Shown: positions 1,885 through 30,827 of the stretch, piece after piece
How the letters are laid out: each line of letters begins with the position of its first letter
Numbering within the stretch: the first letter of the stretch is position 1
Translations under genes and position numbers: made by a program
The notes under the pieces: model-generated
The model's input: the letters and a program-made list of their open reading frames with translations, nothing else
Databases searched by the model: none
What the model was told of the DNA's origin: nothing
DNA from: Halococcus saccharolyticus DSM 5350
GTDB lineage: Archaea > Halobacteriota > Halobacteria > Halobacteriales > Halococcaceae
Length of the DNA stretch: 64,000 nt
Direction: 5' to 3'
NCBI RefSeq assembly: GCF_000336915.1
Contig: NZ_AOMD01000016.1
Span: 98,340 to 162,339, forward strand

Positions 1885-1899
1885 GAAGTCCCGTGGTGT
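1885..1899 (+). repeat. 15-nt copy of the tRNA-Gln 5' end
   Basis: The 15 bases gaagtcccgtggtgt are identical to 2070-2084, which cover the base before tRNA-Gln plus its first 13 nt. The copy lies 185 bp upstream in the same orientation. The spacer holds several short hairpins and the motif gaacgaagtgag. Confidence 0.75.
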
Positions 1900-1917
1900 C
1901 TCGCCGAACGTAGTCGT

Positions 1918-2070
1918 TCGAAACGGCTTCGCCGTTTCGTGATGACGAAAGACGCTTCGCGTCTTTCGAACCATGAGGCGAGGCTCGGAACGCGAGCAAA
2001 GCGAGCGTTTCGGTGGTGAGCAAATCCGTAGGATTTGCGATCCTTGCGGGACGAGCGAACGAAGTGAGTG
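1918..2070. other. Hairpin-rich spacer before tRNA-Gln
   Basis: At least three tight inverted repeats are visible: gaaacggcttcgccgtttc near 1918, gaaagacgcttcgcgtctttc near 1950 and gcaaatccgtaggatttgc near 2021. Just before the tRNA is the haloarchaeal spacer motif gcgaacgaagtgag. No coding sequence is supported here. The block is exactly the interval between the tRNA-Gln 5' copy and the gene itself. Confidence 0.55.
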
Positions 2071-2071
2071 A

Positions 2072-2144
2072 AGTCCCGTGGTGTAGTGGCCAATCATATG
2101 GGCCTTTGGAGCCCATGACAGCGGTTCGAATCCGCTCGGGACTA
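2072..2144 (+). tRNA. tRNA-Gln (TTG)
   Basis: A 73-nt cloverleaf with a perfect 7-bp acceptor stem (agtcccg/cgggact) and discriminator A. The anticodon stem is tgggc/gccca around the loop ctttgga, giving anticodon TTG. The T arm is agcgg-ttcgaat-ccgct. No intron and no encoded CCA. A 15-nt copy of its 5' end lies upstream at 1885-1899. Confidence 0.95.
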
Positions 2145-2192
2145 TTTGCTTCGTGGATGGCGCTCCGCTGTTCTACGATGGACGAATCTCTG

Positions 2193-2975
2193 TTAGGTCC
2201 ACTCGATCTCGAACCCCCGGGCGTCGCAGCCACGACAGACCGCGCGGACCACGTCGAACGACCGACAGCACGAGTCGACGACCTCCTCATCCAGCTCTAC
2301 CGAGTCGTCACACGCCGGGCACGTTTCGAGGAACAGCCGGAGACTGCCGAGGAGTTGGAGCCGCTCGACGGGTGTCAGTCGCTGCCACGATGACACGAAC
2401 GACGGAACGACGTCGGTCGCGGCCACGTCGGCCACGATCGCCGCGTCGGAACTCCACTGTCCGACGGTCGCGTTATCGTGAAGTGCGACGACGTTACCGT
2501 CGATCGACTCGAACGTCAGCTCGTCGTCGGGATCGTCGATCGCCTCTTCGAGGCGTGTCGATCCCGGGTCGCGTTCTCGGACGAACTCGATCCGGTCGCG
2601 CCACGTCGTGCGAAACTCGGGCTGGAGACAGAGATCGTCCGCGTGTTCGCACGGGCCGATCACCCCTGCATCCACCAGGAGCTCTTCGGGCGAAAAGGAT
2701 GCAGGGGTTGACGGCTGTGTCGGTGCCTTCCCGAACCGACGCAGCACCCGATCCGGGAGGTAACGCTTGGTCAGCGCCGGCGTGCCGGGAACGAGATATC
2801 CTCTGAGGTAGATGACGACGAGACAGCCCACGAGTACCGCCACCCCAGCGCCCGCAGTCCACAGTCCGATCGCAGCGCTCACCGCGATCGCGATTCCGAC
2901 GTTGACCACTGTACACGGGAGACAGCGGTTCTCGCCGACGTGTTCCGGCTGCCGAAATCGGGAATGGAGCCCCAT
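2193..2975 (-). CDS. Membrane-anchored protein with C-terminal zinc-ribbon-like cysteines
   Basis: I do not recognise this 260-residue protein. Near the N-terminus are two adjacent hydrophobic segments (about residues 24-56: VVNVGIAIAVSAAIGLWTAG, GVAVLVGCLVVIYLRGYLV), followed by a roughly 180-residue acidic soluble domain. The C-terminus carries CPACDD, a Cys-Cys pair and CRGC, which could form a zinc ribbon. The gene is monocistronic between tRNA-Gln and an orphan tRNA tail. A 12-bp perfect inverted repeat (2662-2673 and 2697-2708) lies inside the coding sequence. Function unknown. Confidence 0.65.
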   Translation of the reverse strand: MGLHSRFRQPEHVGENRCLPCTVVNVGIAIAVSAAIGLWTAGAGVAVLVGCLVVIYLRGYLVPGTPALTKRYLPDRVLRRFGKAPTQPSTPASFSPEELLVDAGVIGPCEHADDLCLQPEFRTTWRDRIEFVRERDPGSTRLEEAIDDPDDELTFESIDGNVVALHDNATVGQWSSDAAIVADVAATDVVPSFVSSWQRLTPVERLQLLGSLRLFLETCPACDDSVELDEEVVDSCCRSFDVVRAVCRGCDARGFEIEWT

Positions 2976-3105
2976 TGGTTCCCGTTACCGGGGCAGTCCA
3001 GTTCAATCGTGTGGTCGCTGTCGTGTACGTCATGGATGATTTGGTGGTAATTGCTCTAGTTGCTCCTATCGTCGTCGGCCGGTTCGATAGTGTCACGCGA
3101 GCCGT

Positions 3106-3127
3106 CGGTTCGAATCCGCTGGCCCAT
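3106..3127 (+). repeat. Orphan tRNA 3'-tail-like fragment
   Basis: The stretch cggttcgaatccgctggccc resembles a T loop followed by the 3' acceptor strand of a tRNA. It matches the tRNA-Ile tail at 20461-20486 apart from one A-to-G change, a 2-nt deletion and a further mismatch at the end. No 5' half or anticodon arm exists upstream, and the T stem no longer pairs fully, so this is a remnant and not a gene. Confidence 0.55.
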
Positions 3128-3190
3128 CTCGATTTCCTCAGTCGCCTTCGGTACTGACACAACGGCTGAAGTGAACCGTGTACGCTTAGA

Positions 3191-3829
3191 TTACTCCCGG
3201 TGAGGTTGCTGGGGTTCGGGTTTGCTTCGAACTGCCGCGTTCGTGATGCCGGTGACGACGGTTTCGATCATCATGTTTCGGACGGCGGGATAGAGATCCT
3301 CGCCGATGTCCTCCTTGTGGAGCGCGAGAATGGCTGCTGAGTCGATGGTCGCGGCGATGATCTCGGGGTCACCCTCACGAATCGCCTCCGTCTCCTGCCA
3401 CTCCCTGATGTAAGGCATGATGTAGCCGAGCTCTCGCGTTCGTTGTTCGAGGAACTCGTCTTCGGAATACAGGTGGCCCAACTGCTCCAGCTCGTCGTCG
3501 GCGAGCACCCGCTCGATCAGTGGATTCGTTTCCAATTCCTCGAAGAGAACGTGGAGGTACTCCCTGATCGCCTGCTCGGGATCGGACTGTTCTTCGAGCG
3601 GGGTGGTAGCACGCTCGTAGAACCGTTCGGTCTCGCGTTCGAGGACCGCGAGGTAGAGCTTTTCCTTCGAATCGAAGAACTGATAGAACGTGCTCGGCGC
3701 GATGTCCACAGGGGTAGTGAGGTCGGTCATCGTGGTCTTCTTGAGCCCGTAGCGCGCGAAGAGCTTCCGGCCCTCGTCGAGCAGTTCCTGTCTGATGTAC
3801 GCCCGTCTTTCGTCGCTGAATCCTTTCAT
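3191..3829 (-). CDS. TetR/AcrR-family transcriptional regulator
   Basis: This 212-residue protein has an N-terminal TetR helix-turn-helix (about residues 8-55: IRQELLDEGRKLFARYGLKK, TMTDLTTPVDIAPSTFYQFF, SKEKLYLAVL). A variable helical ligand domain follows. TetR proteins are dimeric repressors released by small molecules. The gene lies downstream of, and co-directional with, the two permeases and ATPase at 3900-6539 (70-bp gap), so it probably autoregulates this exporter operon. A 16-bp inverted repeat at the operon promoter (6568-6583) is a candidate operator. Confidence 0.85.
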   Translation of the reverse strand: MKGFSDERRAYIRQELLDEGRKLFARYGLKKTTMTDLTTPVDIAPSTFYQFFDSKEKLYLAVLERETERFYERATTPLEEQSDPEQAIREYLHVLFEELETNPLIERVLADDELEQLGHLYSEDEFLEQRTRELGYIMPYIREWQETEAIREGDPEIIAATIDSAAILALHKEDIGEDLYPAVRNMMIETVVTGITNAAVRSKPEPQQPHRE

Positions 3830-3899
3830 GGTGTGGTCGTCTACTGATGAAACCGCGGATACGATTCGATCTCTGGGATCGTTCGGTGCGTCCGATTCA

Positions 3900-4739
3900 C
3901 TACAGATCCATCCGGGTGAATCGAAACTGGCTCACGATTACCAACACGATGGCGACCGCGAGCAGGAGTGCTGCGCCATCGAGGTTGTAGGCTCCATCGA
4001 CGAGGATACCCGACGGATCGAAGTAACGCATCGGCGAGACGTTCCCGAGCCACTCGACGTCGGTCTCGACGACGAACGATTCGAGGAGCCACGCCGCGAT
4101 GACGACCCCGAGCGCGGCACGGCCGGCGGTTCGTCCCCGGCCGACGACGACGCCCAGCAAGAGGCCGACCGCAGCCCAGCAGAGCAGGTACGGGATCGAC
4201 AACGCGTGCAGCGCCGCGAGGTCGGCAAGCGCGATCGGTTCGTCGATGAGCACCGAGCCGCCGTACATCACGAGCGGGATAACGACGTTCAAAACGACGA
4301 TAGGCACGAGCAGCGAGAAGTACTTCCCGAGCAGCACCTTCGTCCGCGAGATAGGGGCCGCCATCAGGGTGTCCATCCGGTCGTTTTTGATGTCGCCCGC
4401 GACGCTCCCGGCGGCGCTGTACGCGAGGTACGCGCCCAGCCCGACGACCCACGTGAAGGTGTAGAACTCGCCGCCGACGACCCCTTCGATCGAGTTGAAG
4501 TTCTCGAACCCCATCAGTGCGTTCATCGCGGGTGGCATCGCCTCGATGATGTCGTCGTATGCGCCCGTCGAGACGAGGTCGGGGGCGAGCGCGACGAACA
4601 TCCCGCCGAACAGCGCGAAGATAACGGCGAGGACGCCCGTGATCCGGAGTCGTCGAACGCCCTCGAAGCGGATCACGTCGAGCATCGAGCCGGTGTGTCC
4701 CCCACGGTCGGCGGCTTCGGTTCCCGTCTGGGTGCTCAT
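3900..4739 (-). CDS. ABC-2 type transporter permease (second copy)
   Basis: A 279-residue ABC-2 type membrane subunit with about six TM helices and the family region containing AAYSAAG-like, DRMDTLMAAPISRTKVLLGK and FSLLVPIVVLNVVIPLV segments. It is a clear paralogue of the gene just upstream, sharing SIAGDI-like, MDTL-AAPxSRT and RYFDP/RYYDP motifs, so the pair arose by tandem duplication. The ATG at 4739 was chosen over an upstream in-frame ATG (4763) because it makes a 4-nt ATGA overlap with the upstream permease. The two permeases probably form a heterodimeric exporter driven by the ATPase at 5517. Substrate unknown. Confidence 0.85.
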   Translation of the reverse strand: MSTQTGTEAADRGGHTGSMLDVIRFEGVRRLRITGVLAVIFALFGGMFVALAPDLVSTGAYDDIIEAMPPAMNALMGFENFNSIEGVVGGEFYTFTWVVGLGAYLAYSAAGSVAGDIKNDRMDTLMAAPISRTKVLLGKYFSLLVPIVVLNVVIPLVMYGGSVLIDEPIALADLAALHALSIPYLLCWAAVGLLLGVVVGRGRTAGRAALGVVIAAWLLESFVVETDVEWLGNVSPMRYFDPSGILVDGAYNLDGAALLLAVAIVLVIVSQFRFTRMDL

Positions 4740-6539: not shown

Positions 6540-6567
6540 ATTATTCTCTCATACATCTACACTCTAT

Positions 6568-19845: not shown

Positions 19846-20340
19846 ATGGTGCTCCGGATCATCGGGCTGCTCCTCCTCATCCCGCTGTTCGACGCCGTGT
19901 TGCTCGTCGCGGTGGCGAACTTCATCGGCGCGATCCAGACCGTGGCGCTGGTGGTGCTCACGGCGCTGATCGGAATGCTCCTCGTGCGCGCCGAGAGCCG
20001 TCACACCGTCAGGAAGATCAGGGAGCGCGTCGAGCGCGGCGAGCTTCCCGGCGACGAGCTCCTCGACGGCGGCCTCTTGATCGCTGCCGGCGCGTTCTTG
20101 CTCACGCCGGGTCTCGTCACCGACGCCGTGGGACTCCTCCTCGTCGTCCCCGTGACGCGCTGGCCGATCCGCTCGGCGATCAAGCGCTGGTTCGTCGTGC
20201 CGTACATCGATCGAAAAACTGGCGGAATCGCCTCCGGCGGCGTCTACGTCGGTGGATTCCCCGGTGGAGCCGACACCGACGATTCGGACATCTACGATGT
20301 CGATAGTGGACGCGATGACCCTGAGCCAGGTCACGAGTAG
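19846..20340 (+). CDS. FxsA-family membrane protein
   Basis: A 164-residue protein. The N-terminal two thirds match FxsA: two TM hairpins (LRIIGLLLLIPLFDAVLLVA, IQTVALVVLTALIGMLLVRA) and the diagnostic GGLLIAAGAFLLTPGLVTDAVGLLLVVPVTR (residues about 75-105). The C-terminus is an acidic, Gly-rich soluble tail. In bacteria FxsA modulates phage T7 exclusion and its normal role is unknown. The family is widespread in haloarchaea. Confidence 0.88.
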   Translation: MVLRIIGLLLLIPLFDAVLLVAVANFIGAIQTVALVVLTALIGMLLVRAESRHTVRKIRERVERGELPGDELLDGGLLIAAGAFLLTPGLVTDAVGLLLVVPVTRWPIRSAIKRWFVVPYIDRKTGGIASGGVYVGGFPGGADTDDSDIYDVDSGRDDPEPGHE

Positions 20341-20409
20341 TTTCACTGAAAAATCGACGCGTCGCGAAGAGAAACCCTTACATGCGGTACGGCGCAACTC
20401 CGGATGTCC

Positions 20410-20483
20410 GGGCCAATAGCTCAGTTAGGTTGAGCGCTCGGCTGATAACCGGGAGGTCCGCGGTTCAAATCCGCGTTGGCCCA
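20410..20483 (+). tRNA. tRNA-Ile (GAT)
   Basis: A 74-nt cloverleaf with acceptor gggccaa/ttggccc, discriminator A, and anticodon stem ctcgg/ccggg around loop ctgataa, giving GAT. The T arm is ccgcg-gttcaaat-ccgcg. No intron or encoded CCA. The last 23 nt plus three flanking bases are copied 140 bp downstream. Confidence 0.95.
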
Positions 20484-20486
20484 TTT
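20461..20486 (+). repeat. tRNA-Ile 3' tail, original copy of a 26-nt direct repeat
   Basis: These 26 nt, the T-loop side and 3' acceptor strand plus ttt, recur without mismatch at 20601-20626. The 140-bp period is bounded exactly like an attachment-site duplication. Confidence 0.85.
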
Positions 20487-20600
20487 TCCTACGTAAATCG
20501 ACGAACGAAGAGGGTCCGATGAGCGTCGAAAATACAACCGAGCGGATTTGAGCCCTGCCAGTCGCAGCCGACGAACGAAGTGAGTCGGATCGTCTGGCTC

Positions 20601-20626
20601 CGGTTCAAATCCGCGTTGGCCCATTT
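20601..20626 (+). repeat. tRNA-Ile 3' tail, downstream duplicate
   Basis: A 26/26 match to 20461-20486. The 114-bp interval holds two copies of cgacgaacgaag (20501 and 20569) and no ORF of its own. No anticodon arm precedes this copy, so it is not a second tRNA gene. Confidence 0.85.
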
Positions 20627-21025
20627 CTGACGGCGAAGCGCACGAGCTACTGACTCATGAAACGGCAGCCGGTGCGATTGGCGAACGGACCCCTTCGCGA
20701 GCCGTAGCTCGTCGGCCAGTTCATCCGAAAAAGACAGCAGGGGTAGGTTACAGGTGATGCCACGCAACAGAACCCTGCTGTCCCGTGGAGCTCGCCTCGC
20801 TCCGTTTGTCACTCTGTCCCACGCGATAATAAGCTTTGTGTGGGCACACTACTGCGATATATATTGATTGCGGGTATCGGTCGGGCGAAAGCTGGTGCCG
20901 AATTGGATGAGTCTCGGCTGAGGTGTCGATACCGACATGCGCCGAACCGAGCCATTGAGGCCAGTCGAGACCGTAGCCGAGCGTATGATCGGTCATCGAT
21001 GCCGCCAAGCGGGGACGGTCCGTCC
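20627..21025. other. Intergenic stretch with a 10-bp inverted repeat and AT-rich patch
   Basis: No gene is supported. A perfect inverted repeat gacagcaggg (20733-20742) / ccctgctgtc (20773-20782) flanks a 30-nt loop. The AT-rich run gcgatatatattgattg (around 20852-20868) is much lower in GC than its neighbours and could be promoter-like. Confidence 0.4.
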
Positions 21026-21226
21026 ATGACGGTCGACGAACGCGTGCTGCTGGGGGTCGTCCTCGCCGCCGGCGTGGTCGTCCCTGGGGTGGCTGACTAC
21101 GCGCTTTCGACCGCCGGGTTTGACACGGCCGGAATGATCGTTTGGGCCGTCGGCTACCTCACGATGGCACTCCTGGTCTGGTATCGCTGGATTCGGCCGC
21201 TCGATCTCTCGGGGCCGGCCGGATAA
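21026..21226 (+). CDS. Conserved small two-TM membrane protein
   Basis: A 66-residue protein, MTVDERVLLGVVLAAGVVVP, with two hydrophobic segments (residues about 6-26 and 36-56) and the conserved-looking WYRWIRPLDLSGP terminus. I recognise the pattern from haloarchaeal genomes but know no function. The reading frame stays open upstream, yet the upstream part lacks membrane-protein composition, so the ATG at 21026 is used. Confidence 0.6.
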   Translation: MTVDERVLLGVVLAAGVVVPGVADYALSTAGFDTAGMIVWAVGYLTMALLVWYRWIRPLDLSGPAG

Positions 21227-21317
21227 CTGCCCTCGGTATCGTCGTCTGGCGACCGCTCGCAGTACTCGGCCCGACTCGTAAGCTTGAAGCCGGCGACCCG
21301 CCGACGTTTCGCTGAGG

Positions 21318-21575
21318 ATGTTCGCGCTCCCGCTGCAGGTGATCGACAAGTTCCTGCTCCAGTACAATCTGGGCCAGGTGTTGCTGCTCGTCTTCGTGCT
21401 TGCGACCCTCGCCGCGCTCACCCAGCGGTCGCTGAAGATCATCGCGCTCCAGACCATGACCTTCGGTCTCCTCTTCATGCTGGTTCCGAGCATCGACGGC
21501 CCGCCCCTCTATCTCTACCTCGGCATCGGACTCCTGATGGTCGCCCCGATGGCGTACGTCAGCGCCGGCCGCTGA
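21318..21575 (+). CDS. Conserved small membrane protein
   Basis: An 85-residue, very hydrophobic protein with three likely TM segments (LGQVLLLVFVLATLAAL, IIALQTMTFGLLFMLVP, LYLYLGIGLLMVAPMAYV). Function unknown. Its stop codon is followed within about 9 nt by a cactttttac T-run, which begins repeat copy B and probably terminates the transcript. Confidence 0.6.
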   Translation: MFALPLQVIDKFLLQYNLGQVLLLVFVLATLAALTQRSLKIIALQTMTFGLLFMLVPSIDGPPLYLYLGIGLLMVAPMAYVSAGR

Positions 21576-21580
21576 CCCAC

Positions 21581-21865
21581 CACTTTTTACTGCGTCGGGT
21601 CTCCTCGCTCGTCGGCTTCGCCGACTCGCTGCGGGGACCACTCCTTGTAAAAACCTGGACTAAAAACACCCGCTCGTTCGCCTTCGGCTCACTCACGGCG
21701 AACCGCGCTCGCTCCGCTCGCGCGGACGGTCTCCACTACCCCGCACCACGACCGCAAACCGCACAACACCGCCGAAGCCCTCAACTGCTCGCTTCGCTCG
21801 CAGTTTCACCCTTCATCTGCCAGGCCCGCCCCGCAACCGCGCCGCCCCGTAGCCGCACCGCTCCC
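21581..21865 (+). repeat. Dispersed intergenic repeat, copy B
   Basis: It begins with a T-run right after the stop at 21575. It contains a 28-nt core at 21649-21676 (aaaaacctggac then taaaaacacccg and ctcg) that is identical, in reverse complement, to 28633-28660. Further shared blocks with copies A and C are the accgcacaacaccgccga-type block and the atctgccaggcccgccccgc-type block. It fills the gap between two genes and shows no credible coding sequence. Confidence 0.75.
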
Positions 21866-21936
21866 GCAGCCGCCCTGCAACCGCACGCGCTCTCGCCACC
21901 ACGATTTATCCCGCTCGGCGTGGTACGTATCGCCGT

Positions 21937-22500
21937 ATGTCAGAGACAGATGTCGCGGTCGTCGGCGGCGGACCGGCAGGGCTCAGCGCGGCGCTGTTCG
22001 CCGCGAAGAACGGTCTCGACACGATCACCTTCGACACCGACGAAACCTGGATGCACAAAGCGCACCTGTTCAACTACCTCGGGATCGAGAGCGAAGACGG
22101 CTCGGCGTTCATGGACGACGCTCGCGAGCAAGTCGCGGAGTTCGGCGTCGATCGCCGGCAGGGAACGCAGGTCACCGGCGTCGCCGAGAACGGCGACGGC
22201 TTCACCGTCTCGACCGACGATGGTGATCACGAGGCGAGCTACGTCGTCCTCGCGACGGGCGCGAAGCGCGATCTCGCCGAGGACCTCGGCTGTGAGTTCA
22301 CCGACGAGGACGTGGTCGACGTGGACGTGACGATGGAAACCACGGTCGAGAACGCCTACGCCACGGGCGCGATGGTCCGGGCCGAGGAGTGGCAGGCGGT
22401 CATCTCGGCTGGCGACGGTGCGGCAGCCGCCCTGAACGTCCTCACGAAGGAGAAAGGCGAACACTTCCACGACTTCGACACGCCTGCCGACGCCGAGTGA
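21937..22500 (+). CDS. Short thioredoxin reductase-like FAD oxidoreductase
   Basis: A 187-residue protein starting MSETDVAVVGGGPAGLSAAL, with an FAD Rossmann motif, a region around ETWMHKAHLFNYLG, the ATG motif VVLATGAK, and a C-terminal ATGAMVRAEEWQAVISAGDGAAAALNVL that matches the flavin-closing motif of TrxR. Compared with TrxR (about 310 aa) it lacks the central NAD(P)H domain and the redox CxxC. It could receive electrons from another partner, or act as a flavin-binding sensor. The gene appears intact, with a TATA-like box upstream, so it is a family form rather than a fragment. Confidence 0.78.
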   Translation: MSETDVAVVGGGPAGLSAALFAAKNGLDTITFDTDETWMHKAHLFNYLGIESEDGSAFMDDAREQVAEFGVDRRQGTQVTGVAENGDGFTVSTDDGDHEASYVVLATGAKRDLAEDLGCEFTDEDVVDVDVTMETTVENAYATGAMVRAEEWQAVISAGDGAAAALNVLTKEKGEHFHDFDTPADAE

Positions 22501-22558
22501 CCGACGACCGTCGCGACGATCCAGAACCCGTAAGCGGTCGGCCGCCGTCGAACCGGGC

Positions 22559-23467
22559 GTGAGTACCGGTGTTTTTCGACGTGTCGAGCGCACGACGCCA
22601 CCCCTTGCGGCGCTCGCGGTTGCGGTCGTCGCGGTCAGCACCAGCGCGTTCTTAGTTCGCTACAGTGCGGCCCCGAGCCTCGTGAAGGCGTTCTACCGGG
22701 TTCTCTTCACCACGCTGCTCCTCGTTCCGTTCGCGCTCGTTCGCCACCGCGACGCGTTCGGTCGGCTCTCCGCCCGGGACTGGTTCGTCGCGACTGCGGG
22801 CGGCGTCGCGCTCGCGATCCACTTCGCATCGTGGTTCGAGAGCCTGGAGTGGACCAGCGTCGCCGCCTCGGTCACGATCGTCCAGTCTCAAGTCCTGTTC
22901 GTCGCCGCCGGTGCGGCGTTCTTCCTCGCCGAACACGTCACCCGCCGCACCCTCGCGGGGATGATCGTCGCACTCTGTGGGATCGCGGTGATGTCGGTTG
23001 GTGACGCTCTCACCGGGGCGAATGTCGCGGGTGCGGCCCCGCTGTACGGCAACGCCCTCGCGCTCGTCGGTGCGGTCTGTGCGGCGGGCTACGTGCTCGC
23101 CGGGCGCTCGCTCCGTCAGCGCATCCCGCTGGTTCCGTACGTCATCGTGGTTTACTCTGTCTGTGCGGTCGTACTGCTCGCGCTCACCGTCGCCGACGGC
23201 GCGGCCTTGGTCAACTACCCGCCCCGCGAGTGGCTGCTCTTTCTCGGGATGGCGGTCGGCCCCGGACTGTTCGGCCACACAGTCCTGAACTGGGCGCTTG
23301 CCCACGTCGAATCCAGTGTCGTCAGCGTCTCGCTGCTCGGCGAACCCATCGGTAGCGCGCTACTCGCGCTCGTTCTCCTCGGTGAGATTCCGACCGCGAT
23401 CACCGTCGTCGGCGGTGCGGTCGTGCTCGTGGGGATCGCGGTCACCTCGCGGGCGCGGACGACCTGA
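22559..23467 (+). CDS. EamA/DMT-superfamily transporter
   Basis: A 302-residue integral membrane protein with about ten TM helices in two EamA repeats. The first repeat includes STSAFLVRYSAAPSLVKAFYR and HFASWFESLEWTSVAASVTI. The second includes YVLAGRSLRQRIPLVPYVIV and NWALAHVESSVVSVSLLGEP with IGSALLALVLLGEIPT. DMT proteins export or take up amino acids, nucleosides or metabolites, and the substrate is unknown. The start is GTG. Confidence 0.88.
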   Translation: MSTGVFRRVERTTPPLAALAVAVVAVSTSAFLVRYSAAPSLVKAFYRVLFTTLLLVPFALVRHRDAFGRLSARDWFVATAGGVALAIHFASWFESLEWTSVAASVTIVQSQVLFVAAGAAFFLAEHVTRRTLAGMIVALCGIAVMSVGDALTGANVAGAAPLYGNALALVGAVCAAGYVLAGRSLRQRIPLVPYVIVVYSVCAVVLLALTVADGAALVNYPPREWLLFLGMAVGPGLFGHTVLNWALAHVESSVVSVSLLGEPIGSALLALVLLGEIPTAITVVGGAVVLVGIAVTSRARTT

Positions 23468-23671
23468 CCTGATGGGGAGATCGATGGGTGGTTGGCGCGC
23501 GATGAATGCGCGCCGACGGCGCGCAGAACGCGCGAGGGATGACTGAATGATGCGAGCGTCGCGAGCAAACGAAGGAATCGACTGGGGAGGGCGTGGCCCG
23601 CTCTCTCTCATTTGTCCCGTGGTTCGCGGCTTTCGACGCCGTACTCCCGACCGAAATCCCTCATCGTGTGG

Positions 23672-24466
23672 CTACTGCCGGCTGCCTGGCTGCGGGTCGA
23701 CGTGTGGTTTCGCCATGAGCGCGTCGCGCGGCTGGTCGTCAAGCCAGTCGAGCAGCTGAACGAGCTGGTCGGCCGCGGCCTCGAACAACTGCTTGCCCTT
23801 TGCCGCCGTCGCGTCGGTCTGATCGCCGAGCACGCCATTCTGGGTGTTGTCGATCGAGTCGTAGAACGTCCGTGCGCCGAACTTCCGCGGGTCGGCCTCG
23901 GCGAGGTCGGCGATCCCGCCATCCCGGGCGTCGTCGAGCTTCCCGTCCCGAACGAGGTCAGGAGCGATATGCTGGATCATCGCGGTCTCCTTCGGCCCTC
24001 CATGCGGGCCGTTCTGGGCGAACAGGTCGTCGACGAGTTCGGGGATCGAGTCGTTCCACATCCACTCGATCGCGTAGGCGGTGCCGTCGTCGCGGAGTCG
24101 CCGGCCGACCTCGCGGAGGTGGACGGTGTTGCCGCCGTGGGCGTTGACGAACACGATCCGGTCGACGCCGTGGTACGAGAGGTTGCGTGCGAGGCTCTCG
24201 ACGTACTCCCGGAAGGCGGGTGCGTCGACCCACATCGTGCCGTGGAACTGTCGGTGATGGGGGCTCACGCCGACGTTCACCGTGGGCGTACAGAGCACGT
24301 CAGCCCGATCGGTCGCCTCGCGCGCGAGGTGCTCGGCGATCAGGTGGTCGGTAGCGAGCGGAAGATGCGGACCGTGCTGTTCGGTCGAGCCGAGCGGGAC
24401 GACCGCAAGCGACTCGCTTGCGACGTGCTCACCGAGTTCCGGCCACGTCCGATCCGCGAGGTACAT
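23672..24466 (-). CDS. Creatininase-family amidohydrolase (possible ArfB)
   Basis: A 264-residue metal-dependent amidase. The metal-site signature LGSTEQHGPHLPLATDHLIAE (about residues 25-45), HHRQFHGT, NAHGGN and the catalytic Glu region IEWMWND are intact. The creatininase family includes the archaeal riboflavin/F420 enzyme ArfB (formylamine deformylase) and mycofactocin and creatinine hydrolases. With ribE, ribH and ribL in the same window an ArfB role is attractive, but this is inference. The gene is divergent from the class V aminotransferase. Confidence 0.82.
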   Translation of the reverse strand: MYLADRTWPELGEHVASESLAVVPLGSTEQHGPHLPLATDHLIAEHLAREATDRADVLCTPTVNVGVSPHHRQFHGTMWVDAPAFREYVESLARNLSYHGVDRIVFVNAHGGNTVHLREVGRRLRDDGTAYAIEWMWNDSIPELVDDLFAQNGPHGGPKETAMIQHIAPDLVRDGKLDDARDGGIADLAEADPRKFGARTFYDSIDNTQNGVLGDQTDATAAKGKQLFEAAADQLVQLLDWLDDQPRDALMAKPHVDPQPGSRQ

Positions 24467-24568
24467 ACCGGCGTGTCGAGCGGACCCCGCATAACGGTGT
24501 CCACTTCGGCTCTCGTGGCCGTGGCTCCGGATGGGAACGTTTCAATCCCCGTGTGCCGTACCCCAGCT

Positions 24569-25675
24569 ATGGACCCGCTCGATCTTCGAGAGACGATCCC
24601 GGCGCTCGACGAGATCACGTATCTCAACACGGGTGCCGCGAGCCCCGCTCCGCGCCCCGTCGTCGAGGCCGTCACCGACTGCGTCGAACGCCAGCAGTAC
24701 GTCGCACCCGCCGCCGAGGGGATGTATCCGGCGCTCTTTGCGGCATTCGACGATGCACGGGAATCCGTCGCCGACTTCCTCGGAGCCGACCCGGACGAGA
24801 TCGCGCTGACCCAGAGCACCGCCGACGGGATCAACCGCGTCGCGACCGCGCTGCCGTGGCAGGCGGGCGACGTGGTGGTTCGGACCGACTGCGAGCACCC
24901 GGCCGGCATCCTGCCGTGGAAACGCCTCGCCGACCGCCACGGCGTCGAGACGCGGGTGGTCGAGACCACACGCGGCCGACTCGATCGCAACGACCTCGCA
25001 ACCGCACTCGACGGCGCGGACCTGCTCTGTCTCAGTTCGATCACGTGGAACTACGGGACGCGACTCCCGATCGCGGAGGCGGTCACGATGGCCCACGATG
25101 CGGGGGCGCGTGTGCTGGTCGACGCGGTCCAGTCGCCCGGTCAGGTCGCGGTCGACATCGATGAATGGGGGGCTGATTTCGTCGTCGGGGCCGGCCACAA
25201 GTGGCTGCTCGGACCGTGGGGTGCGGGCTTCCTGTACGTCGCCGCCGACGCCACCGCGGCGCTCGAACCACAGCGGGTCGGCTACCGGAGCGTTGCGGAC
25301 CCGAACGATCCGGCCGCCGGCTTTGCCGCTGGCGCTCGCCGACTCGAAGTCGGCACCGCCTCGCCCGCCCCACACGCTGGCCTCGCGGCAGCCATCGAGT
25401 GTCTCGATTCGGTCGGCTTCGGCACGATCGAGAATCGGATCGAGAACCTCACCGACCGACTCAAGGACGGTCTCGACGACGATTCACTCCTGAGTCCACG
25501 GAGCTACGAATCGGGGCTCGTGACTGTCGATGTCGATGATCCCGAAACCACTGTCGAGCGACTCGCCGAGCACGATATCCGGGTTCGGTCGCTCCCGTCG
25601 CCCGACGCGATCCGGATCTCGGTTCATGTGTTCAACACGACCGACGACATCGACCGGGTGCTCTCACACCTCTGA
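24569..25675 (+). CDS. Class V aminotransferase-fold PLP enzyme
   Basis: A 368-residue PLP enzyme of the NifS/isopenicillin epimerase-like fold. Visible features are YLNTGAASPAPRPVVEA at the N-terminus, QSTADGINRVATAL, the Asp of LVDAVQSPGQ that contacts the PLP ring, and the Schiff-base lysine in GAGHKWLLGPWG (about residue 210). It lacks a desulfurase Cys loop that I can identify, so a simple cysteine desulfurase role is not assured. The start follows from the leaderless position after caatccccgtgtgcc. Confidence 0.85.
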   Translation: MDPLDLRETIPALDEITYLNTGAASPAPRPVVEAVTDCVERQQYVAPAAEGMYPALFAAFDDARESVADFLGADPDEIALTQSTADGINRVATALPWQAGDVVVRTDCEHPAGILPWKRLADRHGVETRVVETTRGRLDRNDLATALDGADLLCLSSITWNYGTRLPIAEAVTMAHDAGARVLVDAVQSPGQVAVDIDEWGADFVVGAGHKWLLGPWGAGFLYVAADATAALEPQRVGYRSVADPNDPAAGFAAGARRLEVGTASPAPHAGLAAAIECLDSVGFGTIENRIENLTDRLKDGLDDDSLLSPRSYESGLVTVDVDDPETTVERLAEHDIRVRSLPSPDAIRISVHVFNTTDDIDRVLSHL

Positions 25676-25762
25676 CTGGCCTCGATCGGGGGTGTCATAA
25701 CAGCCGGGCTGTCGTACGAGTATTACGGTAGTGCTAAACGTCTCCGCTGGTACGAGTCGCCC

Positions 25763-25882
25763 ATGGATCTCCCGTCGCCGACGTCGGTCGATGGAATGTA
25801 TCAGTACATGATCGGTTTGCTGCTGGTGCTCGTCGTGGTTTTCGGGCTGTTCTTCGGAGCAGCGTATCTGGGACTTCTGTAA
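25763..25882 (+). CDS. Putative 39-residue single-TM protein
   Basis: The ATG at 25763 opens an ORF with a polar N-terminus (MDLPSPTSVDGMYQYM) followed by one strong hydrophobic helix (IGLLLVLVVVFGLFFGAA) and TAA at 25880. Codon third positions follow the local pattern. It is well placed in a 300-bp gap with AT-rich sequence upstream (tattacggtagtgctaaac). Many such mini-proteins are real in haloarchaea, but I cannot verify conservation. Confidence 0.5.
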   Translation: MDLPSPTSVDGMYQYMIGLLLVLVVVFGLFFGAAYLGLL

Positions 25883-26026
25883 TCCAGAGCGGTTCTGACG
25901 TCGGATTTGTCGGTACTGGGTTGTAACCACTCAGTCCAATCCACGTTTCGACGTGTGACAATACGGGAATCGTGAAACCACCGTTCTCTAATCCACGAAA
26001 CCGGACGGTCCCGCGCTGTTCACGAG

Positions 26027-26049
26027 AACGCCGGGACGGGGATCTGAAC
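26027..26049 (-). repeat. Duplicate of the tRNA-Ser 3' end
   Basis: This 23-nt stretch matches 26140-26162 (3' flank plus 3' acceptor and T-arm side of tRNA-Ser) with one mismatch, 113 bp downstream of the gene's own end on the minus strand. The spacer contains the cgctcacttcgttcgc motif. Confidence 0.8.
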
Positions 26050-26141
26050 TCGTCGAGACGTGCTCGCTACGCTGCGCGCGACTCGTCTACTCAAATCCCC
26101 CGTTTCCGGGCTTCAGCCGCTCACTTCGTTCGCGTCAGAAA

Positions 26142-26222
26142 CGCCGGGACGGGGATTTGAACCCCGGATCCCAAAGGGAACACGCTTTCCAGGCGTGCGC
26201 CTTACCACTCGGCCATCCCGGC
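26142..26222 (-). tRNA. tRNA-Ser (GGA)
   Basis: A class II tRNA of 81 nt on the minus strand with acceptor gccggga/tcccggc and discriminator G. The anticodon stem cacgc/gcgtg encloses loop ctggaaa, giving GGA. It has a variable arm (gttccctttgggatcc) and the T arm ccggg-gttcaaat-ccccg. No intron or encoded CCA. Confidence 0.94.
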
Positions 26223-26248
26223 TCGAATGATTCTACCGGAGTCGGCGG

Positions 26249-26458
26249 TTAAGACCTTTCGCTCCGCGCCAGCCATCCTTCCAGCGCGTAGCTCGATACA
26301 CCCCCACAGACGCCGACGACCACGGCGACCACCAGCTTCGCGAGAATGCCGATCGCCGGCTCCGACGCGACGAGGAGTGTGTAGCCCTGCACGAGCACGA
26401 GAAAGACGAGCGCGGCGATCGCGCCCCACAGCAGGCTCGCCTTGATCCGCGGGTGCAC
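26249..26458 (-). CDS. Conserved small membrane protein
   Basis: A 69-residue, GTG-initiated protein with two hydrophobic helices (about residues 6-29 and 37-62: LLWGAIAALVFLVLVQGYTL, LAKLVVAVVVGVCGGVSSYA) and a short charged C-terminus (LARSERS). It begins 27 bp upstream of tRNA-Ser on the same strand. It is a haloarchaeal type of small membrane protein with no known role. Confidence 0.55.
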   Translation of the reverse strand: MHPRIKASLLWGAIAALVFLVLVQGYTLLVASEPAIGILAKLVVAVVVGVCGGVSSYALEGWLARSERS

Positions 26459-26580
26459 TACGCTGCCCTCACGACAGCTACCGCGGCTTTACTCGGCTGG
26501 GCGATCCGTTTCATACCCGAGCTCCGGTGTGAACGCCTAAATTTCCCCGCATCAAGCCAGAGATCACCACTTCAACGACC

Positions 26581-27792
26581 TCACACGAGCACGTCGACAT
26601 CGTAGCCGCTGGCTTCGAGTTCGTCGAGGAGGGCCGCGACGTGGTCTTCGCCCCGAGTTTCGAGGTCGATCTCGACCTCGGTCGCGGTCATTCCGGTGTC
26701 CCGTGATGTCCGGTCGTGCTGGATAGCGTAGATGTTCGCACGCTCTGCCGAGATGATCCCGATAAGCTGTTCGAGCGATCCGGGCTGGTCGGCCAGCGTG
26801 GTCCGGAGTCGGAGGTAGCGTCCGGTTTCGACGAGGCCGCGCATCACCACCGTCCGGAGCATGTTGAGATCGATGTTGCCACCACACAGTGCCGGCACGA
26901 TCACTTCGTCGTCACCGTATTCGAACGCCTCGGCGAGGATCGCCGCCATCGGGACCGCGCCAGCGCCCTCCACCAGCGTCTTCGATCGTTCGAGCAACGT
27001 CGTGATCGCAACCGCGATCTCGGGGTCCGAAACCGTCACCACTTCGTCGACGCGTTTCTCGATCACCTCGAAGGTTCGATCGCCGACCTTGCGGGTTGCA
27101 ATCCCGTCGGCGATGGTGTCGACGCCGTCGAGCTTCTGGATGTTCCCCTGCTGGAGCGATTGTGCCGCGCTCGGTGCGCCCTCGGCTTCGACGCCGATCA
27201 CCCGGGTATCGGGCGATTTCGCTTTGACAGCGGTGGCGATCCCTGCAATGAGTCCGCCGCCGCCGATCGGAACCACGACGGTGTCGACATCGGGGCAGTC
27301 CTCGACGATCTCGAGGCCGATGGTTCCCTGTCCAGCCATCACGGTCGGATCGTCGAACGCGTGGACGTAGGTCCGACCGTCGTCAGCTTCGATCTCGTGG
27401 GCGCGGGCTTGGGCCGCGTCGTAGTCCTCGCCGTGGAGGACGACTTCCGCTCCGTAGCTCCGGGTGGCTTTGACCTTCGCGATCGGGGCGTGTTCGGGCA
27501 TTACGACGACGCTGTCCACGTCCGCACGGGTGGCCGCGAGCGCGACGCCCTGGGCGTGATTGCCAGCACTCGCGGTGACGACGCCCGCCGCCTGCTCGTC
27601 GGCGGAGAGCGTTGCGATCCGATTGGTCGCACCCCGGAGCTTGAACGAGCCGGTGCGCTGGAACACCTCGAGCTTGGGGTGGACCGCTGCGCCGGTCATC
27701 GAGGAAAACGAGTGGGAGTATTCGAGCGGTGTGTGGCGAGCGACGCTTTCGACGCGCTCGCGGGCGTCGAGCACGTCGGCGAGTTCGATCAT
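26581..27792 (-). CDS. ilvA: Threonine ammonia-lyase (biosynthetic-type with ACT domain)
   Basis: A 403-residue fold-type II PLP enzyme that converts threonine to 2-oxobutanoate, the first step of isoleucine synthesis. PLP lysine K51 lies in RTGSFKLRGA. ASAGNHAQGVA and the Gly loop PIGGGGLIAGIA bind the cofactor phosphate and substrate. The final roughly 75 residues (RLRTTLADQPGSLEQLIGII...) form an ACT domain for allosteric control. The ATG at 27792 lies 27 nt from a minus-strand ttatacc box (27814-27820), so it is leaderless. A longer frame from 27855 is rejected. Confidence 0.93.
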   Translation of the reverse strand: MIELADVLDARERVESVARHTPLEYSHSFSSMTGAAVHPKLEVFQRTGSFKLRGATNRIATLSADEQAAGVVTASAGNHAQGVALAATRADVDSVVVMPEHAPIAKVKATRSYGAEVVLHGEDYDAAQARAHEIEADDGRTYVHAFDDPTVMAGQGTIGLEIVEDCPDVDTVVVPIGGGGLIAGIATAVKAKSPDTRVIGVEAEGAPSAAQSLQQGNIQKLDGVDTIADGIATRKVGDRTFEVIEKRVDEVVTVSDPEIAVAITTLLERSKTLVEGAGAVPMAAILAEAFEYGDDEVIVPALCGGNIDLNMLRTVVMRGLVETGRYLRLRTTLADQPGSLEQLIGIISAERANIYAIQHDRTSRDTGMTATEVEIDLETRGEDHVAALLDELEASGYDVDVLV

Positions 27793-27948
27793 GTGCCGTC
27801 TGCGTCGCTCCGCGGTATAACGGTTGCCGAAAACGGCGGTGGAGAGAACCGCCAAGCGTGTGACCCACCGGTGATCGAGCCCGGCTCGTCTTGAACCTCT
27901 GCCATGCAGGGTGAAAGTGAAAAGTACTTGGAGACCGCCACGAACTAG

Positions 27949-28383
27949 TCATTCCCGGCGGACACATACCTCATTCTCGCGGACGTACCGCTCGACGCGA
28001 TCGCGAAACGAACCCGGGCCTGGCCACGAAACGCCCGCCACGCCGAGTGCGTCCGGATCGCCGACGTACACCGCGATCTTCTCGCTGTCGATTACTGTGT
28101 CACCCCGAGCAGCAGTGTCGTCGCGGTCGATCGTAGCGTCGGTGAATGGCACCGAAACCCGGGCGTACAGCCCACGTCCGACTCCTTCGTACTCGTCGAG
28201 TACGTCGATCTCGGGCGTTCGGAGGATTCGTCCTCGCGTTCTGCCCTCGGGTGCGAGCGTCGGGTAGGTCCCGTCGACACGGTGGAGTCCGTCGAGAACG
28301 GCGTCGCCGCGGTAGTCGAACGTATCGAGGAGCGCCGCCGTACGGTCGGGATCGGTCAGTGTTCCGTAGACGAAGACCTCCAT
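27949..28383 (-). CDS. Gamma-glutamylcyclotransferase-like (GGCT/AIG2) protein
   Basis: A 144-residue protein with the GGCT-fold opening EVFVYGTLTDPDR and the typical tail of TYPTLAPEG and DEYEGVGRGLYARVSV, including the catalytic Glu position in DEYEG. Family members cyclise gamma-glutamyl amines, for example from gamma-glutamylcysteine, which haloarchaea make. The substrate here is not determined. It begins just after repeat copy C. Confidence 0.8.
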   Translation of the reverse strand: MEVFVYGTLTDPDRTAALLDTFDYRGDAVLDGLHRVDGTYPTLAPEGRTRGRILRTPEIDVLDEYEGVGRGLYARVSVPFTDATIDRDDTAARGDTVIDSEKIAVYVGDPDALGVAGVSWPGPGSFRDRVERYVRENEVCVRRE

Positions 28384-28464
28384 GCCGGATCGACGCCACG
28401 TGGACGTATTCCGTTTCCGGCAAGGCGATTGGCCAACACGGACTGTGAGGATGTTTGACGAGCG

Positions 28465-28712
28465 GTGCGGATGAGGCGTCGCCGCGCGGCCAGCGGCGGT
28501 GCGGTTGCGGGGCGGACGCGGCCCTGGTGGATCGAGGGCGAGGACGCGATCAGCGGGAGCGTCCGAGGGCTCGGGCGGTGCTGTGCGGTTGCGGAGAGAG
28601 CTAGCGATCGCACCGCGAGCGAACGAAGTGAGCGAGCGGGTGTTTTTAGTCCAGGTTTTTGGACGGGGTTCGAGGCGAGCGAAGCGAGCCGAGGACCCCG
28701 TCGAAAAAAGTG
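28465..28712 (-). repeat. Dispersed intergenic repeat, copy C (inverted)
   Basis: Read on the minus strand it starts with cacttttttcga right after the citrate synthase stop. It carries the same 28-nt core as copy B (28633-28660, identical in reverse complement). It continues with the cgcaaccgcacagcaccgcc, atccaccagggccgc and ccccgcaaccgcaccgccgc blocks in the same order as B. The gap has no credible gene. Confidence 0.75.
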
Positions 28713-28719
28713 GGTGTTT

Positions 28720-29871
28720 CTAGCGCTCGTCGACTGGCACGAACGACTCGTCTTCCGGGCCGGTGTAGCGGGCACGCGGACGGATCAGTCGATTGTTCTC
28801 TTGATATTCGAGGATGTGGCCGAGCCAGCCGCTGACACGGCTCATCGCGAAGATCGGGGTGTACATATCCATCGGGATCCCGAGCTGGTGGTAGACCGAT
28901 CCCGAGTAGAAGTCGACGTTGGGTGCGATCCCCTTCTCGATGAGACCCTCCTCGCGGAGGTGGTTCTCGATCGCGGTGGTGGCGTCGTACCACTTGGTAT
29001 CGTCGGCGGACTCGCCGAGTTCTTCCAATCGGCTCTGGAGGATGTCCGCCCGTGGATCCTTGACGTTGTACACGCGGTGGCCCCAGCCGGGCACCCGCCA
29101 GTCCTCGCGGTTTTCGCGTGCGTCGGCAACGAAATCGACCGGGTCAGCGCCCGCCTCGTCGATCTCGTAGAGCATCTCCATGACGTCCTGATTCGCGCCG
29201 CCGTGGAGTGGCCCCGACAGCGCGCCCACGCCCCCCGTCAGGGCGCTGTAGGCGTCGGCGAACGTGCTCGCGATCACCATCGTGGTGAACGTCGAGGCGT
29301 TCAGCCCGTGGTCGGCGTGGAGCACGAGCGCCTGGTCGAACGTCTCGGCTGCGACCTCGTCGGGCTCCTCGCCGGTGAGCATGTAGAGGAAGTTCGCGGC
29401 GTAGCCCAGATCGGGGTGCGGTTCGACCGGCTTCTCGCCGTTGCGCAGGCGGTCGAACGCCGCGAGCACCGTCGGGACCTTCGCGGCGACGCGTCGTCCC
29501 TTCCGGAGGGTGGCCTCGCGGTCGCGTGGGTTCGCCGCCGAGTCGGGATCGCCGGCAGAGAACATCGAGACCGCGGTGCGGAGCGCGGCCATCGGCCGTT
29601 CGTCGCCCGCGAGTTCATCGAGCGTTGCGAGGATACGGTCGTCGACCGCCCGCTCGTTCGCGAGAGCGTCCTCGAACGCATCGAGCTCGTCGCGGTCGGG
29701 GAGGTGGCCGTGCCAGAGGAGATAACACACCTCTTCGTAACTCGCCTCGCGGGCGAGGTCCTCGATAGCGTAGCCCCGGTATACCAGTCGCCCCGCGTCG
29801 CCGTCGATGTTGCTGAGCGAGGATTCGGCCACCAGCACACCTTCGAGACCACGTTTGAGCTCGTCGGACAT
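28720..29871 (-). CDS. citZ: Citrate synthase
   Basis: A 383-residue TCA-cycle enzyme condensing acetyl-CoA and oxaloacetate. Catalytic residues sit in ADHGLNASTF (His), GPLHGGANQ (His), GWGHRVY (substrate His) and NVDFYSG (Asp). The length fits the archaeal and Gram-positive type I enzymes. It is monogenic, and its stop is followed immediately by a T-run on its own strand. The N-terminal MSDELKRGLEGVLVAESSLS supports the start. Confidence 0.95.
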   Translation of the reverse strand: MSDELKRGLEGVLVAESSLSNIDGDAGRLVYRGYAIEDLAREASYEEVCYLLWHGHLPDRDELDAFEDALANERAVDDRILATLDELAGDERPMAALRTAVSMFSAGDPDSAANPRDREATLRKGRRVAAKVPTVLAAFDRLRNGEKPVEPHPDLGYAANFLYMLTGEEPDEVAAETFDQALVLHADHGLNASTFTTMVIASTFADAYSALTGGVGALSGPLHGGANQDVMEMLYEIDEAGADPVDFVADARENREDWRVPGWGHRVYNVKDPRADILQSRLEELGESADDTKWYDATTAIENHLREEGLIEKGIAPNVDFYSGSVYHQLGIPMDMYTPIFAMSRVSGWLGHILEYQENNRLIRPRARYTGPEDESFVPVDER

Positions 29872-29936
29872 CGCCTCAGCTTACCCAACCTGCCAGTAAA
29901 AGCATTATCGTTGCGTCCCCGTAGCGCGATCCGCAC

Positions 29937-30338
29937 TCACTGGTACGTTTCGAGCGTGACGCCGGGAATCGTCCCGAAATGTGAATCGCCAGCGAGAACG
30001 GGTTCGTCGCGTTCGATGGCGGTTGCGGCGATTGCGGCATCGGCTTTCCCGATACCGGGACCGTCGTCGTCATCCGCGAGGCGCTCGCCGAGGAGTCGCC
30101 CGGCACGCCGAGCAATGCGCGGGCTCATCTCCACCAGTGGGTACGAATCCAACACCGTCTCGACGGTTCGACGTTCTCCGGGGGAGTTCGCTACCTTTCC
30201 GACGCCGATGCAGAGTTCCAGCACGGTCATCGCGGGCATGACGAGTGGGACACCCTCGGCTTCGAGTTCGCGCTCCATCGAGACGGCCGCCTCCACGTCG
30301 TCGATGACATCCAGGACGAAGCTCGTATCGACGATCAT
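29937..30338 (-). CDS. vapC: PIN-domain toxin VapC
   Basis: A 133-residue PIN nuclease. The acidic catalytic residues appear as D4 (MIVDTSFVLD), E41 (VLELCIGVG), D100 (GKADAAIAA) and D118 (GDSHFG), so the active site looks intact. VapC toxins cleave tRNA or rRNA. Its ATG overlaps the antitoxin stop (ATGA at 30335-30338), the standard VapBC arrangement. It lies between citrate synthase and tRNA-Ala. Confidence 0.9.
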   Translation of the reverse strand: MIVDTSFVLDVIDDVEAAVSMERELEAEGVPLVMPAMTVLELCIGVGKVANSPGERRTVETVLDSYPLVEMSPRIARRAGRLLGERLADDDDGPGIGKADAAIAATAIERDEPVLAGDSHFGTIPGVTLETYQ

Positions 30339-30565
30339 TCGAATCGGTCGGCGACCTCGCGGACCGCCTTGCGGTCTCGGTCGTCGGCAGCGTCGATGGC
30401 CTCGCGCATCGCGGCCACCTCGCTCCCCTCGAACACGTCACGGAGGTCACGCAACGACCGGCCACCGATGAGTCGCTCGACAGCTTCGCTGAACGACTCG
30501 TCGTCGCGTTTGTTCGACCGGATGCGCTCGTACACGTGGTCCTGGAGTCGGATCTGTTGTGACAT
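30335..30565 (-). CDS. vapB: VapB-type antitoxin
   Basis: A 76-residue protein starting MSQQIRLQDHVYERIRSNKR. It has a predicted DNA-binding N-terminus followed by SFSEAVERLIGGRSLRDLRDVF and a charged helix ending VREVADRFE. This matches the small archaeal VapB-like antitoxin family. It is immediately upstream of vapC with a 4-nt overlap. The start at 30565 is preferred over an upstream in-frame codon because the upstream extension is not antitoxin-like. It likely autoregulates the pair. Confidence 0.82.
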   Translation of the reverse strand: MSQQIRLQDHVYERIRSNKRDDESFSEAVERLIGGRSLRDLRDVFEGSEVAAMREAIDAADDRDRKAVREVADRFE

Positions 30566-30669
30566 CCTTGTTGACAGCGTTGACGCTCGACGGTAATCAG
30601 CATTCGGACGGGCCTCGAGGTTTCCGTCGTAGCTGCCTTCACCGGTAAGGACGGTCAATCAGGCGAACC

Positions 30670-30686
30670 GAATGGACTCGTCGGGA
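30670..30686 (-). repeat. Duplicate of the tRNA-Ala 3' end
   Basis: The 17 nt gaatggactcgtcggga are identical to 30753-30769 (3' flank plus 3' acceptor strand of tRNA-Ala), 83 bp away in the same orientation. The spacer is rich in gagcgaacg/tagtgagcg-type motifs. Confidence 0.8.
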
Positions 30687-30755
30687 CCGAGCGAACGCTG
30701 CGCGTTCGCGAGGGTCGACGAGGGAACGACTGAGCGAACGTAGTGAGCGAAGGAA

Positions 30756-30827
30756 TGGACTCGTCGGGATTTGAACCCGAGGCCTTCCCCGTGCCAGGGG
30801 GATGATCTACCACTGATCTACGAGCCC
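30756..30827 (-). tRNA. tRNA-Ala (GGC)
   Basis: A 72-nt cloverleaf on the minus strand with acceptor gggctcg/cgagtcc (one G-T pair) and discriminator A. The anticodon stem tcccc/gggga holds loop ctggcac, giving GGC. The T arm is ctcgg-gttcaaat-cccga. No intron or encoded CCA. Confidence 0.94.

Follow-up and report, generated by a model that had tools for sequence, protein, structure and literature searches.

Short non-coding hairpin inserts downstream of haloarchaeal tRNA genes: candidate mobile mini-elements

Several described systems leave short repeats or hairpins in genomes. Palindromes of the miniature inverted-repeat transposable element (MITE) or repetitive extragenic palindrome (REP) kind are short hairpin elements without coding capacity that some relatives have and others lack. 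Integron attC sites are stem-loops with a variable apical part and a conserved structure, and occur in arrays of units, while tandem inversion duplications leave copies in the order direct-inverted-direct. At tRNA genes in particular, haloarchaeal proviruses use the tRNA 3' end as attB, and those described are kilobases long and carry an integrase or other genes (PMC3119063). Casposons of Methanosarcina mazei and Aciduliprofundum boonei encode Cas1 and insert at a tRNA 3' end with a target duplication of 14-15 bp, which in M. mazei comprises 4 bp of tRNA-Leu and 10 bp beyond it (PMC6977970). Here we describe units of another make, found in a 64,000-nucleotide stretch of the Halococcus saccharolyticus DSM 5350 genome (hereafter the window) and in many relatives. 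They are a tRNA-anchored, structured, non-coding family of inserts whose 20-nt copy derives from the host tRNA and for which an exact empty site exists. We lean towards reading these inserts, which lie downstream of many haloarchaeal tRNAs, as mobile mini-elements whose enzyme is encoded elsewhere.

ARAGORN places exactly four tRNA genes in the window (Gln, Ile, Ser and Ala), and the initial annotation was right that a repeat lies beside each: 15 nt at tRNA-Gln (1885-1899/2070-2084), 26 nt at tRNA-Ile (20461-20486/20601-20626), 23 nt with one mismatch at tRNA-Ser (26140-26162/26027-26049) and 17 nt at tRNA-Ala (30753-30769/30670-30686). It took all four for a single phenomenon. This holds for Ile, Ser and Ala, which follow a common plan of a 3' copy downstream and an inverted stretch between tRNA and copy. 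The 5'-end copy at tRNA-Gln (1885..1899, + strand) is a real repeat that we place outside the family because it is the sole upstream own-end copy among the 46 tRNA genes tested in this genome; it lies 185 bp upstream of the gene, and several short hairpins can be made out by eye between the two (1885-2084). The variant of gcgaacgaagtgagcg said to occur in every spacer is present at Gln, Ser and Ala with at most two mismatches, but at Ile the closest variant has three differences, and with at most two mismatches the 16-mer also turns up at two further places in the window (8348 and 28619). Five other direct-repeat families of at least 15 nt within 400 bp occur in the window.

The units contain two parts that this earlier account lacked, an inverted copy of the T-arm and a common hairpin body. 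Read from the sequence, the usual order, seen in most of the 13 units of this genome, is tRNA, trailer, inverted T-arm copy (left arm), hairpin body and, in direct orientation, a copy of the final 20 nt of the tRNA (right copy). A tRNA intron with a bulge-helix-bulge motif at the insert boundaries was considered by eye; the host tRNA is complete ahead of the insert. At the Ile unit, on the + strand, tRNA-Ile(gat) (20410..20483; ARAGORN and Rfam) is followed by a trailer read from the sequence (20484..20541), a left arm with one mismatch, recognized from inverted repeats (20542..20554), a type A body supported by fold and model match (20555..20603) and a right copy identical to nt 54-73 of the tRNA (20604..20623), with identity extending from 20601 to 20626. 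The body consists of a stem P2, a conserved internal loop, a stem P3 and a GA-rich apical loop, and it scores 70.7 bits against R1, our body-only model without arms (G000:C16:118894-118941). By eye, the Ile trailer shares blocks with the tRNA-Tyr trailer of the same genome.

The other two units lie on the - strand, downstream of tRNAs likewise called by ARAGORN and Rfam. Behind tRNA-Ser(gga) (26142..26222) come a trailer that contains gcgaacgaagtgagcg (26102..26141), a left arm (26091..26101), a type C body (26050..26090) and a right copy of the tRNA 3' end with one mismatch (26029..26049). Behind tRNA-Ala(ggc) (30756..30827) the left arm is short and weak, 7 nt of inverted acceptor strand (30716..30722) whose 7-mer is common in the window; it is followed by a type D body (30687..30715) and a right copy made of the last 14 nt of the tRNA and 3 nt of its trailer (30670..30686). 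Beside tRNA-Ala, on the opposite strand, lies an S15-Halobacteria ribosomal protein leader (Rfam; 30919-30979, +). Inserts in the cases measured are 69-180 bp long (69-167 bp in the window's genome, 139 bp at Tyr and 140-180 bp at Ile), which leaves no room for an integrase gene.

Own-end copies were then compared with shuffled controls at all tRNA genes of the genome (3.45 Mb, 36 contigs), the check that the initial annotation had proposed. The 46 genes comprise 44 Rfam matches, 30 of them taken as fetched loci and 14 by position, and two array tRNAs from ARAGORN. At a cut-off score of at least 13, a downstream copy of the gene's own 3' end is present at 13/46 tRNAs, at +57 to +167 from the tRNA, and the remainder have none: what holds for the window's tRNAs does not extend to all. 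Each of 20 dinucleotide-shuffled replicates of the flanks gave 0 direct copies, and a chance origin is rejected. When tRNA i is paired with flank j, 55/2070 mismatched pairings reach the cut-off, partly because tRNAs resemble one another. An inverted stretch scoring at least 7 precedes the copy in 12/13 units, but 7 is near background; the firmer figure is that for inverted downstream copies scoring at least 10, found at 9/46 own flanks versus 97/2070 mismatched ones.

How closely the units follow their hosts was measured on 110 type A elements that have a tRNA within 450 nt, kept from 112 rows after removal of an unrelated pattern match (L031) and an element counted twice via a second tRNA (L143). 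Tests of base 57 and of the edges used the 103 elements with at most 6 mismatches, and tests of trailers and T-runs the 100 with at most 4; loci within isotypes and within genera are not independent. Over nt 54-73 the right copy is identical to the adjacent tRNA in 74/110 elements, and a tRNA picked at random from another isotype is matched in full in 0/110 (median mismatches 0 versus 7). Since the search pattern prescribes the first three letters of the copy (TTC), this test rests on the other 17. The right edge of the copy is the discriminator base, with identity dropping to ~0.5 directly after base 73. The left edge lies within GGTTC, and further upstream likeness is lost at most positions; it cannot be placed more finely because GGTTC is common to tRNAs and bodies. 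Unusual T-loops are copied as well (TTCAACTC in Lys, TTCGATTC in His), and base 57 agrees with the tRNA in 100/103 copies and 94/103 left arms, also within isotypes that vary. Compared with a random tRNA of another isotype, the host tRNA is the better match to the left arm in 77 elements and the worse in 8, with 25 ties; the arm ends a fixed 7 nt from the core in 96/110.

Two further features of the copies can be mentioned here. A recurrent one-base change in the T-loop of the copy, TTCACAATCC-like in place of TTCAAATCC, is seen at unrelated tRNAs (L122, L161, L181, L244, L286). Several right copies, for example that of L020, are followed by a dispersed intergenic repeat of ~70 nt (CCACCTTTTGCTGCG...GGCAAAATCTGG) that has many matches across the genomes of the genus.

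Sorted by eye, the bodies fall into at least four types (A, B, C and D), and at least two of these families share the frame of tRNA, arm and copy in many genomes. Type A, the commonest, whose hosts in the window's genome are Ile, Tyr and Asn, is built, give or take small changes, around GTCGCAG - stem - GA-rich loop - stem - GACCGTC; types C and D occur in the window's genome and at some other loci. The R1 alignment holds 32 of 58 non-redundant bodies (of 106). Longer bodies were excluded, and so, by manual choice, were some short ones, of which a few look poorly paired on inspection (L092, L161, L181); A1 was built from 26/31. Pairing in the R1 alignment reaches 97.4% of 428 cells, compared to 34-39% in slid controls, and its covariation score is 0.458 versus 0.135 for shuffled alignments, with 0/500 as high. 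Covariation is also seen when no core is excluded by hand. Among the full set of 76 distinct cores of the pattern, the two P2 pairs that vary are formed in 96% and 99% (shuffled 45% and 48%), and pairs 1-3 of P3 in 99%, 80% and 82% (shuffled 66%, 48% and 38%).

Folding of the window's units against shuffles gave z -6.6 for the Ile hairpin (20542-20614) and -4.3 for the whole Ile unit, and -2.5 for the Ala unit; the Ser unit folds no better than shuffles (z -1.1 and -1.5). The acceptor strand of the copy is also predicted to pair with the 5' strand of the tRNA, which follows from sequence identity and is not taken as evidence. Reading the internal loop as a kink-turn or a bulge-helix-bulge motif was unsupported on inspection by eye. 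A scan of positions 20000-31500 with Rfam release 15 (E<=1) gave no match to the units; its six matches are three tRNAs, one S15 leader and two sub-threshold matches over tRNAs. The window's genome also has, by reading, an expanded 5S rRNA gene of the Halococcus kind (L276 1500-1720), which is unrelated to the bodies. Kinship with that insert was rejected: in five genomes whose 5S loci were scanned with R1, the only matches were two weak ones (12.9 and 8.6 bits). In the relative G001 the 5S rRNA gene lies at contig 54 position 66312, the place given for that of Halococcus morrhuae DSM 1307 (PMC7812874).

The tRNA-Tyr locus can be compared between relatives with and without a unit. In the window's genome the tRNA is followed by 119 nt, the 20-nt copy and then cgttcccacctttt; in G005, a relative from the same genus, cgttcccacctttt stands directly after the tRNA, an empty site exact to the base. 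G007 has the same flank minus two bases, a near-exact empty site. The site is occupied in G002 and G003, by two units in G006 and by one in G008, while G001, G004 and G009 have no unit and a flank that cannot be aligned to the window's. The Tyr trailer is common to G002 and G003, and the Tyr body to G003 and the window's genome. G005, which is empty, is less like the window's genome by BLAST at this locus than G002, G003 and G007 (78% identity versus 85-90%), which favours insertion over deletion, but a deletion between the 20-nt repeats would give the same site.

The Ile site is occupied in 4/9 genomes of the genus with a readable locus and empty in the other 5. The occupied ones are the window's genome, G003, G005 and G002, whose unit is partly deleted, with its left half lost and its copy decayed. 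All four occupied genomes align with the flank of G004 (scores 101-124). G003 and G007 align briefly (score 32), G007 having an N stretch and a doubled tRNA there, and the remaining pairs of occupied and empty flanks gave no alignment. Bodies can also differ at one locus: at tRNA-Lys the same trailer precedes a body of type C in the window's genome and of type B in G002 and G006. One 76-nt trailer has 11 matches in 7/10 genomes of the genus, 8 of them at loci with Arg, Ile, Lys or Glu tRNAs. Units also occur in tandem, for example at Pro, Arg, Glu, Met and Leu.

The family reaches well beyond the genus. The 77-nt Ile hairpin matches 35/60 related genomes, with a tRNA within 700 bp at 30/30 fetched loci. 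A pattern scan of contigs from 84,980 species (GTDB genomes) returned 81 stretches, 80 of them listed as loci, whose titles name haloarchaeal taxa save for two metagenome-assembled genomes, an 'uncultured archaeon' (L145) and a 'Euryarchaeota archaeon' (L175). A same-strand tRNA lies less than 400 bp upstream at 75/82 exact-pattern matches, and on reading the remaining 7 have cut, masked, partial or degenerate tRNA sequence. At L109 and L139 the tRNA is cut by the edge of the locus, at L120 and L147 an N stretch lies inside it, and L130 has a degenerate tRNA-like stretch. L113 (320-430) and L171 (1735-1860) carry longer partial tRNA copies, from the anticodon arm onward, with the hairpin or body in the T-loop; the genome of L113 (G060) also has two similar arrays of many tRNAs on two replicons (C1:6995-11080 and C2:586079-587989). 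A larger element bearing these ends was considered and dropped, given the tRNA or tRNA-like sequence at the 7 apparently tRNA-less matches.

Body-only searches agree with this distribution. In a sample of 294 genomes of the phylum, the body-only model matches 51 at E<=0.001, 50 of them in the window's order and one, weakly (4.8e-4), outside it; three listed genomes of the same order have no match, and 223 further unmatched genomes were not listed. In ten genomes of the genus, R1 gives 89 matches at E<=0.01, the weakest of which are partial loop matches. Of the 30 loci fetched from these 89, 27 have a tRNA on the same strand a few hundred bp or less upstream, two are one common non-tRNA site and one is weak and likely chance. 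The common site, the sole one of the type A body away from a tRNA among the loci read, is a gap between rpl24e-like and ndk-like genes, so named from our reading of open reading frames, in G001 and G009, and its arms are unrelated to a T-arm (L240 and L242, ~1480-1560). The type B pattern, CAGGGAG...GACCGTGGTTC, has 62 matches in 33/60 genomes and 0 in the reversed control; 28/30 fetched loci are downstream of a tRNA, with an exact copy in 14/28.

Taken together, the genome-wide excess, the covarying conserved body, the tRNA-anchored position and the exact empty site bear out the initial annotation in part, in that they support a systematic, tRNA-directed process. Of the two processes it named, a tRNA-targeting mini-element is also our best reading, and repeated site-specific recombination is possible. 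A mobile mini-element would insert at the tRNA 3' end, within limits set by the T-loop and base 73, and duplicate 20 nt of its target. Its mobility would be in trans, by an enzyme encoded elsewhere, with the body perhaps serving as the recognition hairpin. The left arm may have been fitted to the host tRNA later, by copying or by selection for pairing, and loss could proceed via deletion between the 20-nt direct repeats.

A number of observations sit uneasily with mobility. No enzyme, excision product or circle was found, in work that included no search aimed at enzyme genes, and a simple target duplication alone gives no tRNA-specific left arm. The conserved bases of the internal loop could equally be explained by an RNA function. 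The body pattern has 0 exact matches in viral contigs, none in plasmids and only chance-level ones in phages. One type A body site, in the rpl24e-like/ndk-like gap of G001 and G009, is without a tRNA, as are 2/30 type B loci, and 3/11 loci of the 76-nt trailer have no ARAGORN tRNA. Some copies are poor: 7/110 type A copies have at least 7 mismatches, several by a one-base shift, and 6/30 type B copies at least 8, some by a shift. Between genera, bodies at the same isotype show no greater average likeness than bodies at different ones (0.680 versus 0.676; 649/2000 permutations as high). Nearest-neighbour bodies nevertheless share an isotype in 21.8/101 cases versus 5.3 expected, about four times as often. 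Neither simple vertical inheritance nor simple spread within genomes fits these likeness data alone, and on such comparisons the inheritance of bodies is mixed.

The main rival holds that the unit is a maintained RNA, co-transcribed with the tRNA and cut out, for instance by tRNase Z acting at each discriminator base, as a discrete small RNA that serves tRNA maturation or regulation. The covarying stems and conserved internal loop would suit such an RNA, as would the strong fold of the Ile unit and its hairpin, and copies remain true to the tRNA across genera. Most units also have no obvious stop before the hairpin, judged from T-runs of at least 5, which occur in the trailer of 1/100 units and after the copy in 10/100 (for runs of at least 4, 18/100 and 31/100). 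We still consider this account unlikely. The units occur at some tRNAs only, are patchy in related species and leave clean empty sites; the body differs at one locus (tRNA-Lys); single-base identity to the own tRNA exceeds the needs of a processing signal; and the fold of the Ser unit is no better than shuffles. Another possibility is that no dedicated enzyme is involved and that template switching at the T-arm, as in tandem inversion duplication or quasi-palindrome correction, makes and homogenizes the direct and inverted copies. The direct-inverted-direct order is what it would leave, and the trailer is duplicated too, being repeated after the copy in 21/100 units versus 5/100 random pairings. 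Haloarchaeal polyploidy and gene conversion would favour correction, and correction could itself yield paired stem changes. Such a purely mutational origin leaves unexplained both the near restriction to tRNAs and the common bodies with fixed internal loops at many tRNAs in many genera, and we think it quite improbable.

The units might instead be scars of attachment: integrative viruses or plasmids with the T-loop as their attB would have lost all but their ends through deletion. Integrative elements are classically marked by copies of tRNA 3' ends, and Haloquadratum has partial tRNA duplications that are linked to proviruses (PMC3119063). Against this stand the similar small size of the units and their common bodies at many isotypes, and in the loci read no body stands at the far end of a larger element. 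With 0 viral-contig matches and no credible plasmid or phage match, we rejected a virus or plasmid origin of the bodies and regard scars as very unlikely.

Mobile mini-elements with an enzyme encoded elsewhere remain our preferred reading. It is tempting to go further and to speculate that haloarchaea host a class-wide set of enzyme-less mobile hairpins that insert in the tRNA T-loop and take both arms from the target gene. We offer this bolder version tentatively, since we hold it to be less probable than its negation. If true, one body could live at almost any tRNA, as a target-templated mini-transposon. Mobility would make the units a widespread genetic element with ends copied from the target, a targeting for which the titles and abstract openings listed in our searches give no example; as maintained RNA, they would mean that haloarchaeal tRNA transcripts carry a structured RNA family missed by the Rfam scan of the units. 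Under either reading, the units place direct copies of tRNA 3' ends next to genes that are themselves classic integration sites. Empty sites, tandem units and differing bodies at one locus offer a clean experimental system in cultivable haloarchaea.

Among the papers listed in our literature searches, no title or abstract opening describes such units or mini-elements of their kind, and a description elsewhere is possible. Like proviruses and other integrative elements, the units end, on the side away from the tRNA, in a copy of its 3' end; unlike them, they are 69-180 bp long, carry no gene and have an extra inverted arm and a conserved hairpin. With casposons they would share insertion at the tRNA 3' end with target duplication, but their ~20-nt copy lies wholly inside the tRNA and they encode nothing where casposons encode Cas1. 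At Tyr the copy is 20 nt and the insert has no gene, in a comparison that included no search for Cas1-solo genes elsewhere. The units resemble MITE- or REP-like palindromes in being short non-coding hairpins whose presence varies between relatives. Rather than being dispersed, however, they keep one orientation, nearly always 3' of a tRNA, and their arms correspond to the host tRNA; in place of fixed, dispersed terminal inverted repeats we find arms that differ by host tRNA, and 27/30 body-only loci are at tRNAs. Integron attC sites share the stem-loop with a variable apex and the arrays, yet the units have no cassette genes and their outer stem is host tRNA sequence. Finally, the order of copies is the same as in tandem inversion duplications, but the stretch between the units' copies is a conserved family and not local sequence.

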